Positions 25,978 through 60,875 of a stretch of 64,000 nt of DNA are shown here, piece after piece. Numbering within the stretch: the first letter of the stretch is position 1; the number at the start of each line of letters is the position of its first letter. Source of the DNA: Triatoma infestans (Eukaryota > Arthropoda > Insecta > Hemiptera > Reduviidae); NCBI GenBank assembly GCA_011037195.1, contig JAAEAF010004988.1, forward strand, positions 1 through 64,000. The letters are read 5' to 3'. The notes beneath the pieces were generated by a model that searched no databases, was not told the origin of the DNA, and was given only the letters and a program-made list of their open reading frames with translations. Made by a program: the position numbers and the translations under genes.

Positions 25978-26287
25978 CAAAGTTGTTGGGGTGGTTGGTT
26001 CCGCAGAGCGGAAAGCATCAGAGACATTTTCTGTGATAGCCTGCTTCATTTTGTGGTCATCGACGGTTATCGGGTGTTCGCCCATCTTCAGGATGCGTTT
26101 GTCAGACAATGTGATAACACAGACCTGCACAGAGCAAATTCAGTTTACACACACAGTGTGCAGGTCTGTGTTATCACACTGTCTGACAAACGCATCCTGA
26201 AGATGGGCGAACACCCAAAACCGGTCGATGACCACAAAATGAAGCAGGCTATCACAGAAAATGTCTCTGATACAATCAGAAGTCTTT
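25978..26287. mobile_element. Fold-back MITE (long palindrome)
   Basis: Two arms of about 150 bp are inverted copies with a short centre near 26140-26160. The inner ~60 bases of each arm ('gttcgcccatcttcaggatg' against 'catcctgaagatgggcgaac') pair with a single mismatch. The ends carry 'ggttccgcagagc' and 'cagagacatttt'/'aaaatgtctctg'. Related copies: 27836, 41745/43267, 51487, and one arm at 29640 and 55450. No coding capacity. Transcripts would form a long hairpin. Confidence 0.88.
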
Positions 26288-29348: not shown

Positions 29349-47719
<18,371 letters not shown>

Positions 47720-50990: not shown

Positions 50991-51486
50991 TTTACTCTTT
51001 TTTTATAAATGATTTTATTACGATTAATAAAAAAAAATAAATTACTTGTATAATGTTACCAGCAAAATATGAAACTCAGGTATTGTATAGAATGCCTAGG
51101 CATTTCATACATTACCTAACTATTTTAGGCAAAGAAGAAATATCTTTTTTATGTCATACTTGGGCTAGGTATTCTAGATTTATTGCCTAGGCATTCTATA
51201 AAATGTCTACGTCGTATTAGGCAAAGTATGAAAAGAGGCCATACATTATTATGGCTTAGTTATTGCTGCTAAATTTTACCAGAAGAAATGCTTTACTATA
51301 TTTGTGTGACCATTTTGCAATGATATCTGATTAGTCAACAGATATCCCTTCCATAGTTACTGCTGCGGCCGTTTTAAGTGGACGCAATCATTAGAGGGGG
51401 AACCAAGGGGACCCAAAACAAACCGCTTCGTGGAGGATACTGTGTTCCCTCAGTTTTTGACCATTCTCGATTCCACTGAATGCTAA

Positions 51487-51780
51487 AAAGTTGTTGTGGT
51501 TGGTTCCGCAAAGCTGGAAAGAATCAGAGACATTTTCCATGATAGCCTGCTTCTTTTTGTGGTCATCGACCGGTTTCGGGCGTTCGCCCATCTTCAGGAT
51601 GCGTTTGTCACACAGAGTGACAACATAGACTTGCACAGAGCAAATTCAGTTTACACAGTGTGCTCTGTGCAAGTTTGTGTTATCACACTGTGTGACAAAC
51701 GCATCCTGAAAATGGGCGAACGCCCGCAACCGGTCGATGACCACAAAAAGAAGTAGGCTATCACGGAAAATGTCTCGAAT
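51487..51780. mobile_element. Fold-back MITE, well preserved
   Basis: Long palindrome centred near 51650-51662, arms pairing 'gttcgcccatcttcaggatg' with 'catcctgaaaatgggcgaac' with few mismatches. Same family as 25978-26287. The right end reads 'ggctatcacggaaaatgtctc'-like sequence without the final 'ggttcc'. Confidence 0.88.
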
Positions 51781-52290: not shown

Positions 52291-52399
52291 AAGCTATACC
52301 CAAACTGTGTCCCAATAAGCAATTTAATGTCTCCAAAATGGTGCAGCCGCTTTTAAATTTCAAAACATGTCTTAATTATTGTCTTTATTATACTTGCAG

Positions 52400-55300
52400 G
52401 TGTGCCAAATTAATGATAGAAAAATAGACTATCCCTATCCATGGTATATGGCGTGTGATATTTGTAAAGATTGTCCAGGATGTGGTAGAACTGTCATAAT
52501 AATCAATGGTACAACAATACCACCGGATATTGTACCATTGCCGACACCTGTATTGATACAAACATTTGCAACAATACCACCGCCAATAGTAATGCCACCT
52601 ACAATATCGCCTCCAATCATAATAGCACCGATAATACCCCCTCCGACAATACCACCAACATTACCTCCTCCGACGAAACCATCTCCGACAATATCACCAA
52701 CAATACCACCTCCGACAATACCACCGACACAAGTGCAGACATTGCCGCCTCTGACAATACCACCGACACAAGTGCCGACATTGCCGCCTCTGACAATACC
52801 ACCGACACAAGTGCCGACATTACCGCCGCCGACAATACTACCAACCTCACTACCTCCGACAATACCACCAACATTACCACCTCCGACAATACCACCGACA
52901 CAAGTGCCGACATTGCCGCCTCTGACAATACCACCGACACAAGTGCCGACATTGCCGCCTCTGACAATACCACCGACACAAGTGCCGACATTACCGCCGC
53001 CGACAATACTACCAACCTCACTACCTCCGACAATACCACCAACATTACCTTCTCAGACAATACCACCAACATTACCTCCTCGGACAATACCACCAACATT
53101 ACCACCTCTGACAATACCACCAACATTACCTCCTCCGACAATACCACCAACATTACCGCCGACACAAATGCCGACATTACCACCTCCGACAATATCACCA
53201 ACATTACCTTCTCCGACAATATCACCAACATTACCTTCTCCGACAATACCACCAACATTACCTTCTCCGACAATACCACCAACACAAGTACCAACATTAC
53301 AACCACCGACAATAGCACCAACATTACCACCTCCGATAATACCACCGACAGTACCTCAAACACAAGCACCAACAATACCACCAACTCAAGCACCGACATT
53401 ACTACCTTCAACAATACCACCAACTTCAATAATACCACCAACCCAAGACCAAACAATACCACCAACTCAAGCACCAACCATACCACCTCCGACAATACCA
53501 CCAATTATAACCACGACAATAACCTCAACTATGTCAACAATGCAACCGACTGTAACCACAACAACAATTATACCAACCACTTCTACTGAAATAACTTCTA
53601 CAACAACAACCACGGATGATACATTAACCACTACACCAATAACAAGTACAACAACGTTACCAACTACTACAACAGCAATGCTGCCAACACAAAGTAGCAG
53701 AAAACCAACTAAAAAGATTACAACCACTGTTACCACAACAATCTGGTATATTTACCCATCATGGTAAGTAGTTTTTAATTATATTAAGAGAATAGAGGAA
53801 GTACTGTAATCGTATCAAATTTTCGAAATCATGTTTTCACCGGAAATAGAAGTTTCAAGGTCCCCTGAGTCCAAATTTTTATTTTTCAAATGGTCTGTGT
53901 ATTTATGAGTAACAGCATAGCTCAAAAACCGAAAAATCGCAGAATGTTCAAACTTGATTTTCCATTTAGGTATCACCATGAGGATCCGGACAGCAAGTTA
54001 TATGTCAAAATTCCTCAACCGGAAGTACCACTTGACTGAATAGTTGTTTTCAGTTTTTTTGCAATTCTCTCAAAAAATGGCTCCAAACGATTTCATTTAA
54101 ACTTGGTATATATCAGTTATACGAGGGTTATTCAATAAGTAACCGAGACAAATCGCAGTAGCTCAGAAACGATTTGTTTAATCAATGCAATAGTTTCAGT
54201 GCGTCAAGTTGGCGTCCTTGTACTTAGTTTCCCATCAGCTGTTTAAGAGTATTTGGTAAGCATAACTTCAATGCATTCAGTTAATAATGGCGAATCCGCT
54301 CGAGTAGAGCACCACAGAAGAAGAACGCCCAGTGATTAGATTTTTAGTTGCAGAGGGTATCAAAAGTAGTGAAATCCACGAAAGAATGTTGAAAGTATAC
54401 GGAAATAACTGTTTGAACCGTTCGAACGTTTACAAATGGGTAGAGCAATTTAAAAGTGGTCTTGAAAGTGTCTGTGACGAGCAACGAAATGAACGACTGG
54501 TTGAAGTTGCAATTTCTTCCTTCGAAACTCGCATTAGTTCACTCAAGAAACGCGTTAATTTAGGACAAAATGCGTATTACTGTTGAAGTGATAGCTGAAG
54601 AAGTGCACGCGAGTGTTGGCATTGTCCATAACATTATTCAGAATAAGCTGCAATACAAGAAAACTTGTACGAAATCGGTTCCAAGACAGCTTACGGACGC
54701 CCACAAAGAAACCAGGTTTCAAATCAGTCCATCAGTTGAAAGAACGATGTTTAATTGAAAAAGAATTTTTCAGTAGAATTGTAACATGTGATGAAACATG
54801 GATACACCGTTTTGAGCCGGAATCTAAGCGTCAAAGCCTTGAGTAAAAGCATATGGGTTCTCCTCGAAAGAAATTCAAGACCCAGCCGTGTGCAGGTAAA
54901 GTCATGCTTACTGTTCTGGGATCACAGGGGCCTATTTATTGTGACTATGTCGAAGATCAACGAACCATCAACAGCCAGTATTACAGTGATATGCTCACAA
55001 ACAAAGTATGGCCTGCCATAGGAACGAAACGTCGTGGAGTCTTGACTAAAGGCGTGATTGTGCTTCATGACAACGCTTGCCCACAGACGGCACAGTTCAC
55101 TCAAGAAACACTACAAAAGTGGGGTGGGAGATCCTTCCACATCCCCCCTACAGCCCCGACCTCGCCCCATCAGACTACCATTTGTTTGGACCCCTTAAAG
55201 AGGCTCTACGTGGGGAACATTTTCAATCCAATGAACAAGTTAAAAATAAGGTGCTAAAGTGGCTTCGAGATCAGCCCAAAGAATTTTATTTCAGAGGCGG

Positions 55301-57691
55301 CATAAACAAATTAGAAGAGCGATGAGACAAGTGTATAAATGTTGCTGGGGGACTATGTTGAACAGTAGGCCCAATGTTTCGTATTGATTAAAAAAATCGT
55401 TTTTTGAGCTACAGCGATTTTTCTCGTTACTTATTGAATGACCCTCGTAAATTTACTCTGAGCAAAGACTAACCTACTGTTTTGACAAAAACACCTGATC
55501 ATGGTTGATACCGCACAAAAAGAAGCAGGCTATCACAGAAAAATATCTCTGATCATTCCAGCTCTACGGAACCAACCAACCACATCTTATGGTATTCAAC
55601 AATGGTGGGTCCAGGACCTTGTTGAGCCTCTTACAGCTAATTATTAAGCTCCTATAAAAATCATTTTTACTCACCGTAAAAACATAGCTTTCTGTAAATA
55701 GTGAAATGTCCTAGTCAAATTATAATTATCTTTGTCATTAGCAAATGATGCACCCAATAATTCCAATACATCAATCTGTTCTTCTAAAGTTAGCTCACAT
55801 TTTAACAATAGATATTCGACAACATCAGCTCGTGTACGTTCTGCAGCGGCTCAAATTGGTGTCATTCCTAGATAATCGCAAGAAATAAAAACAAAAAAAA
55901 TTAATAAATAAAAATTAGATCACTGTTGGATTTATTGAAAAAAAAAAAATAGAAATCCATATAGATTTAAATAAAATCCAGAATACCTACTCACCATTGA
56001 CGGTTGTTATCAATCGGGCGCCATATTTTAATCAACAGCCAGTATTACAGTGATTGCTGGGGATTATGTTGAAAAGTAACTAAAACTTTTGTATTAATTA
56101 AAAATTAATTCGTTTTTGAGCTACAGCAATTTGTCTCGTTACTCATTGAATGACGACCCCCATACATACAGAGAGTCACAATTTATATTTTAAAAAGTTT
56201 CTCCGAGGGAAGGGATGAGGTTAGGTTTTCCTCTAAAGTCGTTATTTCAGTTTATTATACAAATTCTATCATCCTAAATAATATTAATTAGAATTAAATA
56301 TGTTGTTGAAATTACCGAGTTTGAAGTGAAAAATCAGATGACTGGTACTCCTCTCACCCAGTAAGAGGAAGTAGTAATATATTTATTGCCGTCAGAACTG
56401 TCAAACTTATTGAAAATTAAATAAAATCTATTATTTTTGCTTCAATATTTAAATAATGACCAATCTATCATGGCATTTTAACCGCTATCTGTTAGGGAAT
56501 ATTTGTTTAGTTGCTTTGGCGCTCACTATGTGGCAGCACCATAGTTCAATAATAAAACTCATTACTTCTAAAATGATTCATATAATTCGTCTTCGTCTTT
56601 ACAAATCATTTTTATTTATTTATTGATTTATATTCACTCAGTAATAAAAACTCTGATGTTTCATTTATTCTCGACAAAGAAACAAAATTATTGACTGTCA
56701 AAGTGACATACATATTTTATAGCAATTTCTTACATGTGATAAACATGCTGAGATTGTTTGAGTTTTCAATGAAAACAATCAAAAGTGAGGTTGGAAAAAC
56801 TGTACTTTCTCTTACTCCTAAGTAAGAGGAGTATTGAAATCGTGTCAAATTTTTGATATTGAGTTTTCAACGGAAATATCCGTTTTAAGGTCCAAAAAAG
56901 AGTCCAAAAAAAGTGATTTTTAGAAAATGGTCTCTGTGTATGTGTGTATGAGAAACAGCATAGCTCGAAAACGAAAAACCGTAAGAAGTTCTAACTTGAT
57001 ATTCCGTTTAGGTATCACCATGGGATCCGGACAGTACGTTATTGTCAAAATTCTTCAACCGGAAGTACCACTTTACTAGTTTTTTTAAAATTTTTTTTTG
57101 CGATTTTCTCAAAAATGGCTCCAACGATTTTCTTGAAACTTATTATATCAACCATACATACAAAGAGGTACAACTTTTATTTGAAACATTTCTCCCGGAA
57201 AAATTCATTTAAGGGCACTTTTTGGGGAGGGGGGTGGTTACGGTTTCCTCTAAAGTGCTATCATAGTTGATAAATACAATTCCTACCATACAAACAAAAT
57301 TAAATTAGAAATAAATAGATTGTCAAAATTTGGAGTTTCAAGAAAAATTAGTAAACCGGAAGTGCGCTTCTATTGAACAGTTTTTTTTCAATTTTTGCGA
57401 TTTTCTCCATAAAAACACTGACGAATTTCATTAAATTTGTTACACAAACTATAAAATTTGTCAATATAATTTTGAGGAATTGGTGTAAAGAGAAATTTGT
57501 GTGAGTGTTACGAAACTATTGAAACGATTATTGATTCATGGAGGCCAATGATTTTCAAAATTCAATTTGTACAGAATTAATTCTTACGTTTTTTTTTTTT
57601 TTTGTAAAGGTTGCCCAGAGGTTTGTCCATCAGTATACCTTCCAAAAATATAATTAAAAAATGCATATTACTAATATGGCTTGGAATTTAA
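52400..57691 (+). CDS. Pro/Thr-rich mucin-like protein, partial (exons 52400-53763 and 57610-57691)
   Basis: The large exon follows an acceptor ('atacttgcag') and ends at a strong donor (TG|GTAAGT). It encodes 454 codons. A short head with five Cys ('MACDICKDCPGCGRT') and an 'NGT' glycosylation site is followed by ~330 residues of TIPPT/LPPP repeats, then a Thr/Ser-rich stretch and 'KPTKKITTTV'. Such Pro/Thr arrays are typical of secreted, O-glycosylated mucins or matrix proteins; the exact role is unknown. The terminal exon is inferred from an acceptor at 57608-57609, an in-phase TAA at 57689-57691 and AATAAA at 57721 and 57765. In the joined frame the tail has one Cys. A different frame of the same exon reads 'CPEVCPSVYLPKI', so the junction or one base may be wrong. 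No signal peptide exon was found upstream. The intron holds the composite mariner. Confidence 0.65.
52700..53120 (+). repeat. 171-bp higher-order repeat inside the mucin-like exon
   Basis: The basic unit is 39 bases, 13 residues ('TIPPTQVPTLPPL' and variants). A longer block repeats: 'gacaatactaccaacctcac' occurs at 52831 and again at 53002, exactly 171 bases (57 residues) apart, in phase. Later repeats are shorter TIPPTLP(P/S) units of 24-27 bases. Confidence 0.85.
53795..54119 (-). mobile_element. R element, first half, interrupted by the composite mariner
   Basis: 'catgttttcaccggaaatag', 'ggtcccctgagtcc', 'aaccggaagtaccacttg', 'aaaatggctcc' and 'aaacttggtatatatcag'. R continues after the composite at 56163 ('catacagagagtcacaa'), matching the uninterrupted copy at 57148-57180 ('tatatcaaccatacatacaa'). 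Confidence 0.82.
54122..56162 (+). mobile_element. Composite mariner carrying FEM1B exon 5
   Basis: A 2041-bp unit flanked by TA (54120-54121 and 56163-56164). Parts: mariner 54122-55447 with both inverted repeats; 55448-56032 copied from the FEM1B locus (matches 43265-43851); mariner 3' remnant 56031-56162 that jumps from 'agccagtattacagtgat' to 'tgctggggattatg', i.e. internally deleted, and ends in a modified repeat ('gaatgacgaccccca'). The FEM1B/mariner joint shares only AT. Both halves of one R element abut the outer TAs, which argues that the whole unit inserted once. The transposase is frameshifted ('TCDETWIHRFEPESKRQS', 'VLHDNACPQ', 'YSPDLAPSDYHLF' in different frames). It lies in an intron of the mucin-like gene. 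Confidence 0.88.
55675..55867 (-). pseudogene. Captured copy of FEM1B exon 5, with stop
   Basis: Matches native exon 5 (43495-43687) at 187 of 193 bases, with the acceptor (ctag) and donor (gtgagt) retained. The native Leu codon TTA (plus-strand 43671-43673) is TGA here (55851-55853), four residues after the Met near the exon's start. Part of exon 4 follows at 55995-56032. It is antisense to the mucin-like gene. It cannot give FEM1B protein, but intact splice sites could be used from an antisense transcript. Confidence 0.93.
56163..56385 (-). mobile_element. R element, second half
   Basis: Continuation of the R copy interrupted at 54119: 'aaaaagtttctccgaggg', 'aggttttcctctaaag', 'aaatatgttgttgaaatt' and 'cagtaagaggaagt'. 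Confidence 0.8.
56390..56590 (-). repeat. S150 fragment with its extension
   Basis: 'gtcagaactgtcaaactta' and 'caatatttaaataatgacca' (S150, reverse sense), followed by 'ccgctatctgttagggaat' and 'ctttggcgctcactatg', the same order as at 21480-21650. Confidence 0.75.
56590..56800. other. Unassigned AT-rich intron sequence
   Basis: No repeat or coding similarity recognised. Confidence 0.4.
56805..57525 (-). mobile_element. R element, full-length reverse copy
   Basis: Starts 'ctttctcttactcctaag' and runs through 'aaccggaagtaccacttt', 'gggaaaattcatttaaggg'-like text and 'aaaccggaagtgcgctt' to 'gtgtgagtgtta'. It serves as the uninterrupted reference for the R copy split by the composite mariner. 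In the mucin-like intron. Confidence 0.78.
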
Positions 57692-57779: not shown

Positions 57780-59070
57780 CTGTGTTTTGGCTTGTCTGGC
57801 GATGACCGGTGCGATACAGACCACGCCGTATAGCTGCAATGGAGACTTTATTGGGAATCCCACCGCTCTTTGTAGAGGTGAAAACTGTGGCAATGAAAGC
57901 CTGTTATAGAATTAAACAGGCAGGCTTTTGGCAGGGTAAGCGATAAGGTCATCCTACTATTCATCGCGAGATGATTTTGAAGGTTCCTATTACAGGTTTT
58001 CCTTCTGATAGAATGTTGAAGACTTTTGTTTTCGAGCATTCTTACAGAGTTAGGTTACCTTCTAGGGAAGGATTGGTCAAGATTGGATCCATCTGGTGTG
58101 ATACCTCATAATTACTTCCGGTGTTACACGGACGGTTCCAGAATGGATGGTAGGTCTGGAGCTGCGGTCTATTTTGAGACCGGAGATCATTTGGCAGTAT
58201 CTCTTGGTGAATGGACTACACTCTTCCAGACTGAGGTTTATGCTATTCTTTGTTGCATCTTGGATGAGAGGGTCCGTAACACTAACTTAGAAGGTATTTG
58301 TATCTTCTCGGACAGCCAAGCTGCGCTGAAGGCGCTGAGTCCATGTGTCTTCACTTCCAGGCTGGTGTTAGAATGTTCTAGAAGACTGGAAGAGTTTTCT
58401 TCTCTGAAGGATGTGCTTCTAGTCTAGGTACCAGGTCATATGGGAATTTTTGGGAATGAGGAGGTGGATAGGTTTGCCAAATTACGCGCCTTTCTTCCTT
58501 TCATTGGTCCCGATCCTGCTGTTGGCCTGTCATCTGACACATGTCTGTCAGGCTTCCAGTCACGGATAGCTTCACAGCATTCATCCTTATGGATGAGCAC
58601 AGTTGGTGTCCAAAATACTCTCGGGGGTCCGGACAAGGCTATTAGTGAGAAGTGAGACGTTGCTGTGTCTTTCACGGAGCTCTCTCAGACATCTGGTTGG
58701 ATCCCTTACTGGACATTGTGGTTTAAAGAGACATCTCTACGTAATGGGGCTTATGCCGGATCCATTTTGTAGAGTCTGTGAGACAGAGGAGGAAACACCC
58801 ATACATCTTATGAAGATTGCCAGGGTTGTGAGGAAATTAGGTTCAGGACTTTTGGTCGGAACAGGATGTCTGTGGAAGAGCTTAGGCTACTTCCCATTAA
58901 GGTAATTGTCCGATCTATTCGGACTGCGGTGAATTTTAGATGGATTAGACCCGGGTCTGGATATTTGTTCTAGACCCGGTTTGTTGTTGTTTTTCTTGGG
59001 GTATCTATATTGGCTCAGTGAGGCTTTGGATAGAGTAAGGTTTGGCCCTTCCCCACAGACAAATAATAAT
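57780..59070 (+). mobile_element. Non-LTR retrotransposon fragment, family N2, RNase H intact in one long frame
   Basis: 58026-58427 reads 'CYTDGSRMDGRSGAAVYFET', 'QTEVYAILCCILDERVRN' and 'CIFSDSQAALKALSPCVF'. After a stop comes 'MGIFGNEEVDRFAKL', then 'SLTGHCGLKRHLYVMGL' and 'CRVCETEEETPIHLM'. The RNase H Asp-Glu-Asp-Asp set can be placed. Tail (AATAAT)n at 59067. It starts just past the polyadenylation signals of the mucin-like gene. Confidence 0.88.
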
Positions 59071-60434: not shown

Positions 60435-60875
60435 TCAAATCATGGGGTACAAATCGGCATCTCCTAAAATTTCTTCTAAGGGATTTGAGTTGACGGCGTA
60501 TTGTTTCCCTTGAAGGCCCAAGAATAGTCGACAATTGGCGGGTACTGGTTGACGGATTTTTATTGACTGCCCTTTCTGTAGCCTCAATGTCCCACTCAGA
60601 TGGGAGCCCAGAACGTGGTTCACCTTCACGAACGTATCGCCGCTGTGTAAACGCCTAAACCAACGTTGCGCAGTCCTTTCATTCACAACATCCTCCTCCC
60701 TCCATTTCACATATGCTTCGAGCAGCAGCCGCTCCAGTAAATCTTTGTTTCCAATAATGCCGCAAAAGTACACGAATTTCAAATTTTTCTGAATTCATAT
60801 TAAAAGAGTGGCACAGGTATTGGTTTGAAAGAGATACGATAACTGAGTGAACAATAGTTGTTTGAAAGGTTCTCT
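60435..60875 (-). pseudogene. Mariner-type DNA-binding domain remnant
   Basis: The minus strand reads 'MNSEKFEIRVLLRHYWKQRF' and 'AAARSICEMEG', then, after a frameshift, 'VNERTAQRWFRRLHSGD', and then 'GLQGKQYAVNSNPL'. This is the helix-turn-helix pair (HTH) of a SETMAR/mariner-like transposase with the usual 'RT.QRWF..F.SGD' linker. No catalytic domain follows and no inverted repeats were found. It is not the same lineage as the mariners at 41966 and 54122. Confidence 0.7.

Follow-up and report, generated by a model that had tools for sequence, protein, structure and literature searches.

The window analysed here, a 64,000-nucleotide stretch of Triatoma infestans DNA (contig JAAEAF010004988.1, assembly GCA_011037195.1), holds two similar mariner copies on one contig, 12 kb apart. 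The first, M1 (41964-43266, + strand), lies in intron 5 of FEM1B at a TA target site within a MITE; its open transposase pieces match Pfam Transposase_1 and DDE_3, and one of them matches Mos1 at 1.8e-28. The DNA next to it (43267-43851, + strand) comprises the right MITE arm, FEM1B intron, exon 5 (43494-43688), further intron and the last 38 bp of exon 4 (43814-43851), FEM1B itself being on the - strand and its exons being numbered in the order in which they were found. The predicted identity of the gene rests mainly on exon 5, for which all 16 matches among solved structures were FEM1B or FEM1C (best FEM1B 7e-20, best FEM1C 3e-10). The search with exon 3, topped by designed ankyrin proteins and then by FEM1B (one stretch, 1.5e-38) and FEM1C (1.8e-37), agrees with this but is less telling.

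Genome searches covered the 941-Mb assembly of 13,959 contigs, and only the best-scoring candidates, 40 per query, were evaluated. The MITE belongs to a family with inverted arms, copies of which lie at 25989-26271, 43267-43400 and 51484-51776 of the window, M1 being inside one of them, and about 38 further partial matches were obtained among the best 40 of 2020 candidates.

The second copy, M2, is part of a unit that interrupts an element of the repeat R (left part 53794-54119, right part 56163-56345, both + strand, with aligned stretches of the right part stopping at about 56337-56345). The unit consists, in order, of M2 (54120-55449), which has both terminal inverted repeats (TIRs), of FEM1B-locus DNA (55450-56032, 583 bp) and of a mariner 3' piece that ends at 56162, and it has a TA on either side (54120-54121 and 56163-56164). 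When the halves of R were joined at one TA, they gave a single in-register alignment to the R copy at 56825-57351 (73%, 23 gap openings), and the join also aligned across the joint to other R copies. The copies qualify as Mos1-like mariners (Tc1/mariner) by the HTH_48 and Transposase_1 domains of M2 (Pfam) and those given above for M1, by TIRs, and by TA target-site duplications and empty sites. The first-pass annotation had described a TA-bounded unit of a mariner, a piece of the FEM1B locus and a mariner 3' end, set between two R halves that rejoin, and the parts and the rejoined R were borne out, the FEM1B part measuring 583 bp against 585 bp in the donor.

Several other features were seen in the window. 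Just before R, a 463-aa open frame (52376-53767, + strand) that is rich in Pro/Thr repeats and mucin-like has a GT splice-like site near its end; it had no Pfam match. A weak Mos1-type HTH match at 60438-60794 (- strand), below the Pfam cut-off, perhaps marks the remains of another mariner, and the open frames at 36057-36464 and 58020-58424 (both + strand), with weak RNase H matches also below the cut-off, are possibly retroelement pieces.

The FEM1B-locus DNA of the unit matches 43267-43851 with E = 0, far beyond chance, and differs from it at 13 of 579 sites and by 5 indels. It contains a MITE arm (about 55450-55589), intron, a complete exon 5 (55674-55868, antisense), intron and 38 bp of exon 4. 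The exon copy retains both splice sites, carries a premature stop and two amino-acid changes relative to the donor exon, and is a dead copy. The retained intron sequence indicates that genomic DNA was copied and not a processed transcript, as repair-mediated duplications would have it. In the genome search, the first 140 bp of the flank were found to be the MITE; beyond these, matches to the flank were confined to the donor and the acceptor, and the best 40 of 2020 candidates contained no other FEM1B piece.

Divergence of the two mariner copies

Between M1 and M2, 123 of 1282 sites are different (139 of 1283 in a second alignment) and 19 indels occur, whereas the flank differs at only 13 of 579 (p = 1e-9 for the contrast). 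Decay at CpG was rejected as the source of this contrast, since only 14 of the 68 transitions are at CpG in either copy and 55 changes are transversions. Divergence of active lineages was likewise rejected as the source of the M1-M2 differences, which are distributed over the codon positions without bias (37, 26 and 32 of 329 each, p = 0.38), pointing to decay after insertion.

A genome search with M2 identified 28 further places spanning at least 1104 of its 1330 bases (best 40 of 3241 candidates). For comparison, 31 copies were used: 27 of these 28 places, two from another search, M1 and M2; L037, with a span of 1705 bases, and the loci derived from the window itself were left aside. Divergence among the 465 pairs ranged from 9.3 to 15.1% (mean 11.6%), and the M1-M2 value of 10.4% falls within this range. 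The family is a star in which M1 and M2 are two separate rays; so the two are independent insertions, the last 81 bp excepted, and en bloc capture of M1 with its flank is very unlikely. With a related 357-aa protein as the reference frame, each frameshifting indel belongs to only one of M1 and M2, and two in-frame indels are common to both. Of the 263 protein sites that do not vary among three relatives, M1 alone is changed at 23 and M2 alone at 24; 5 carry a shared change, and at 5 the two copies have changed differently.

Two observations count against the explanation that we favour below. Derived substitutions common to M1 and M2 number 6, against 3 for the median pair; 36 of the 465 pairs reach 6 or more. 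In addition, their divergence is 13.2% up to 54698 and 7.1% beyond, a difference reached in 6 of 500 permutations and seen also in the private changes of each copy; the family as a whole may vary by region in this way, but repair does not explain it.

The comparison also revealed two groupings among other mariner copies of this genome. L036 and L044 share 22 derived substitutions (the next pair shares 11), for which a later duplication, a subfamily or conversion might be suggested. The copies L003/L009, L005/L013, L006, L007 and L011 lack element positions of about 546-959 with similar endpoints and perhaps form a non-autonomous, internally deleted subfamily.

Copied tail, filler and right-hand piece

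The last 81 bp of M2 depart from this picture of independence. Three characters there are common to M1 and M2: a 2-bp insertion at 55369-55370, which all 37 other copies lack; T>C at 55380, absent from each of the 36 others that can be read at that site; and an extra T at 55400, found in only one of the 37. This tail comparison was made without the loci derived from the window and without L003, L004, L005 and L008, which are the same places as L009, L012, L013 and L014. Strings containing the 2-bp insertion and the T>C were confined to window-derived loci among 69 loci compared, some of which overlap. A likelihood changepoint from diverged to similar sequence was placed at 55337 (support 55306-55499) and was matched in none of 500 permutations. 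Together, the shared characters and the changepoint place the start of the copied tract within the mariner, somewhere from 55337 to 55369, and its end at 56032; the mariner part of it (55343-55449, + strand, with TIR and TA) is apparently derived from M1. Against this, M1 and M2 are not identical in the shared tail but still differ there at 4 bases out of 81, which is above the 2.2% of the flank, on few sites.

At its far end, the FEM1B sequence has only AT (56031-56032) in common with what follows, confirming the AT-only joint to the distal mariner piece that had been noted at first pass. A 24-bp filler (56031-56054, + strand) begins with this AT and shares a T (56054) with the right stump. 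It is identical to part of the ORF of M2 (54967-54990), absent from M1 and present in 6 of 29 other copies, so that microhomology as well as filler, both expected of repair-mediated duplications, occur at the breakpoints. Joint strings across FEM1B/filler and filler/stump were found in window-derived loci only, again among 69 loci, some overlapping, and matches crossing the filler joint were ordinary mariner sequence in those places that could be inspected.

When the 712 bp at 55343-56054 are left out, what remains is a continuous full-length mariner of 1333 bp including both TAs, gapless at the joint in the family alignment; the transposon is thus uninterrupted once the insert is removed, as a repair-mediated duplication would require. 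Because removal of 55343-56054 restores a full-length element, the right piece (56055-56162, + strand), which continues 55342 without a gap, is most simply interpreted as the original 3' end of M2 itself, and the outer TAs as M2's own target-site duplication. This replaces the earlier description of the piece as an internally deleted mariner 3' end. If the right piece is M2's own end, the TAs at either side and an R that rejoins are simply what an earlier, ordinary insertion of a mariner leaves behind.

The divergence of the right end lowered our confidence in repair of a resident mariner. This end differs from the family majority at 10 of 103 sites, exceeding all 29 other copies there (highest 0.079), though as much is seen in 11% of 766 similarly sized windows elsewhere; compared with the body of the element left of the presumed break (54120-55342, + strand, 82 of 1205 from the majority, a member of the star-like family), the difference has p = 0.31. 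Its TIR tip has a 3-bp insertion and two substitutions. In a three-way comparison of the tails (98 sites), private changes numbered 2 in M1, 3 in M2 and 14 in the right piece. The possibility that the right piece is a recent copy of another mariner was rejected, as its best genome match was just 90% (best 40 of 1338 candidates). With the qualifications given, the component parts, the independence of M1 and M2, the resemblance of the tail to M1, the continuity of the element once the insert is taken out, and the filler can be read directly from the sequence.

Routes to the chimeric locus

We consider it probable that a break in a resident mariner was patched from M1, that copying ran on into FEM1B and that the product was end-joined, making the locus a repair-mediated duplication. 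A single full-length mariner, X (= M2), would have sat at a TA inside R and would long have decayed when it suffered a double-strand break near 55342, about 107 bp short of its 3' end. The left broken end would then have invaded M1, which lies in FEM1B intron 5, 12 kb upstream, at the homologous 3' end, and would have copied its terminal 81-107 bp, TIR and TA among them. Synthesis would have overrun into the flank, through the MITE arm, intron, exon 5 and intron and for 38 bp into exon 4. Once released, the newly made strand would have acquired 24 bp templated on the mariner ORF and been end-joined to the right stump of X, leaving a 712-bp insertion in X. We infer the break, the pathway (aborted synthesis-dependent strand annealing, SDSA, followed by alternative end joining) and the time order from these products. 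Template-switching copying, by which the first-pass annotation had a FEM1B exon captured beside a mariner, is thereby supported. That annotation had placed the copying in a gap left by excision; the presumed break, about 107 bp inside the element and away from the TIR tip, gives no indication of excision.

Serial template switching during replication, by fork stalling or microhomology-mediated break-induced replication, could have led from X to M1/FEM1B, on to the mariner ORF and back to X with no initial double-strand break. Switches with AT or T in common and the 24-bp local segment fit such a course, but long mariner homology surrounds the first switch, as strand invasion predicts. The end products of the two processes are not separable here, and we regard the replicative route as unlikely.

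Composite transposition, as originally proposed, would have a mariner, the FEM1B piece and a deleted mariner assembled elsewhere and inserted whole into R by the outermost TIRs. A host fragment between TIRs with a target-site duplication outside, as in composite or transduplicating transposons, is indeed present, with TA at both sides and R in register; on our reading, this is only because the outer ends belong to an older element. M2, however, is not a copy of the FEM1B mariner M1, the 10.4% between them being like that of other pairs, and the right piece resumes M2 at the first base of the copied tail, so that removal of 55343-56054 leaves one element and transposition need not be assumed a second time. 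The right-hand TIR is degenerate at its tip. A query spanning the whole joint matched at one place in the assembly (best 40 of 83 candidates), and no second FEM1B/mariner joint was found among the best-scoring candidates, so that movement of the exon by mariner is not supported; no sign that the unit has moved or multiplied was obtained from these best candidates, a distant further copy being possible. Composite transposition is therefore, in our assessment, improbable.

Two successive mariners might also be invoked, M2 having entered the left TA of one that was already present in R and whose 5' part was later replaced through M1/FEM1B repair. A tandem model of this kind (M2 in the left TA of an older mariner, M3) was initially favoured and was demoted because the right piece continues M2 at the very base where the copied tail starts, which two mariners would leave to coincidence. 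The right end is 18-19% from M2's tail and has diverged further than the end of any of the other 29 copies, as an older element would have done, but its difference from the body of X is not significant (p = 0.31, above), and we judge this course very improbable. An assembly chimera of the FEM1B and R loci is hardly credible: the two similar mariners do lie 12 kb apart on one contig and the structure is known from the assembly alone, but 13 substitutions and 5 indels separate the copy from its donor, the premature stop in exon 5 among them, and a continuous element without the insert and a 24-bp filler are hardly products of misassembly. Least credible of all is duplication of M1 and its flank en bloc into R with later conversion of the mariner part alone from another copy, which would also yield diverged mariners beside a conserved flank but requires near-complete conversion halting at the tail, finds a best other match to M2 of 87% (best 40 of 3241 candidates) and leaves the second 3' end that completes M2 unexplained.

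Repair-mediated duplication in X, the reading we prefer, implies that a locus with the look of a textbook composite transposon can arise without transposition and that this is visible from sequence alone. The star-like divergence of the family allows the parts to be dated separately, and the private mutations of the template mark the strand switch, which gives a test by which, in other genomes, gene capture through repair could be told from capture through transposition. It is a doubtful extension that breaks in decayed, dispersed mariners are routinely patched from sister copies, with run-on carrying along host flanks and exons in a capture that recurs in this genome; if true, such units would keep two TIRs and might be mobilised in trans.

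Comparison with known systems

The capture would be a new case of an already known process, homology-primed repair-mediated duplication. Nassif et al., in 1994, reportedly described gap repair at P elements in which nonhomologous sequence was copied from ectopic sites, to go by their title; homology-primed copying would likewise have brought in foreign sequence there, in an experimental system. A literature search of titles and abstract openings, mainly of open-licence papers, found no exon capture of this kind by a mariner.

According to the parts of the respective papers drawn on here, several systems share features with the locus. Turmoil-1 of C. elegans, a case of transduplication, carries host coding sequence with fragments in its terminal repeats (PMC2572040); host coding sequence likewise lies in a transposon here, in the one copy found and with no sign of movement. 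In rice, filler copied from elsewhere (1-123 bp) has been found at DNA-transposon breaks, mariner included (PMC4423477), but those breaks came from excision, whereas here the element remains and the presumed break is internal. The aborted SDSA of Drosophila, observed in a P-element excision assay, proceeds by copying from one end, abortion and end joining with locally templated insertions (PMC2895639); the same series of steps would apply here, the difference being that it was experimental there and would be a natural event with an ectopic template here.

The closest counterparts are the vertebrate duplications of Pace et al. 2009 (PMC2671141), in which, as far as the portion of that paper used here describes them, a transposable element is interrupted by a copy of genomic DNA that is often linked, with microhomology of 2-9 nt or filler of 1-68 nt at the breakpoints; some acceptors are chimeric, and two complete exons are among the captured pieces. 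Proximal donors in that set lie within 5 kb, with 58 further on the same chromosome, and the proximal insert maximum is 619. Unlike this proximal class, the locus described here has its donor 12 kb off, an insert of 712 bp and one switch within transposon homology. Like the duplications described there, it consists of a transposon, M2, interrupted by a linked genomic copy that includes a complete exon, with microhomology and filler at the breakpoints.
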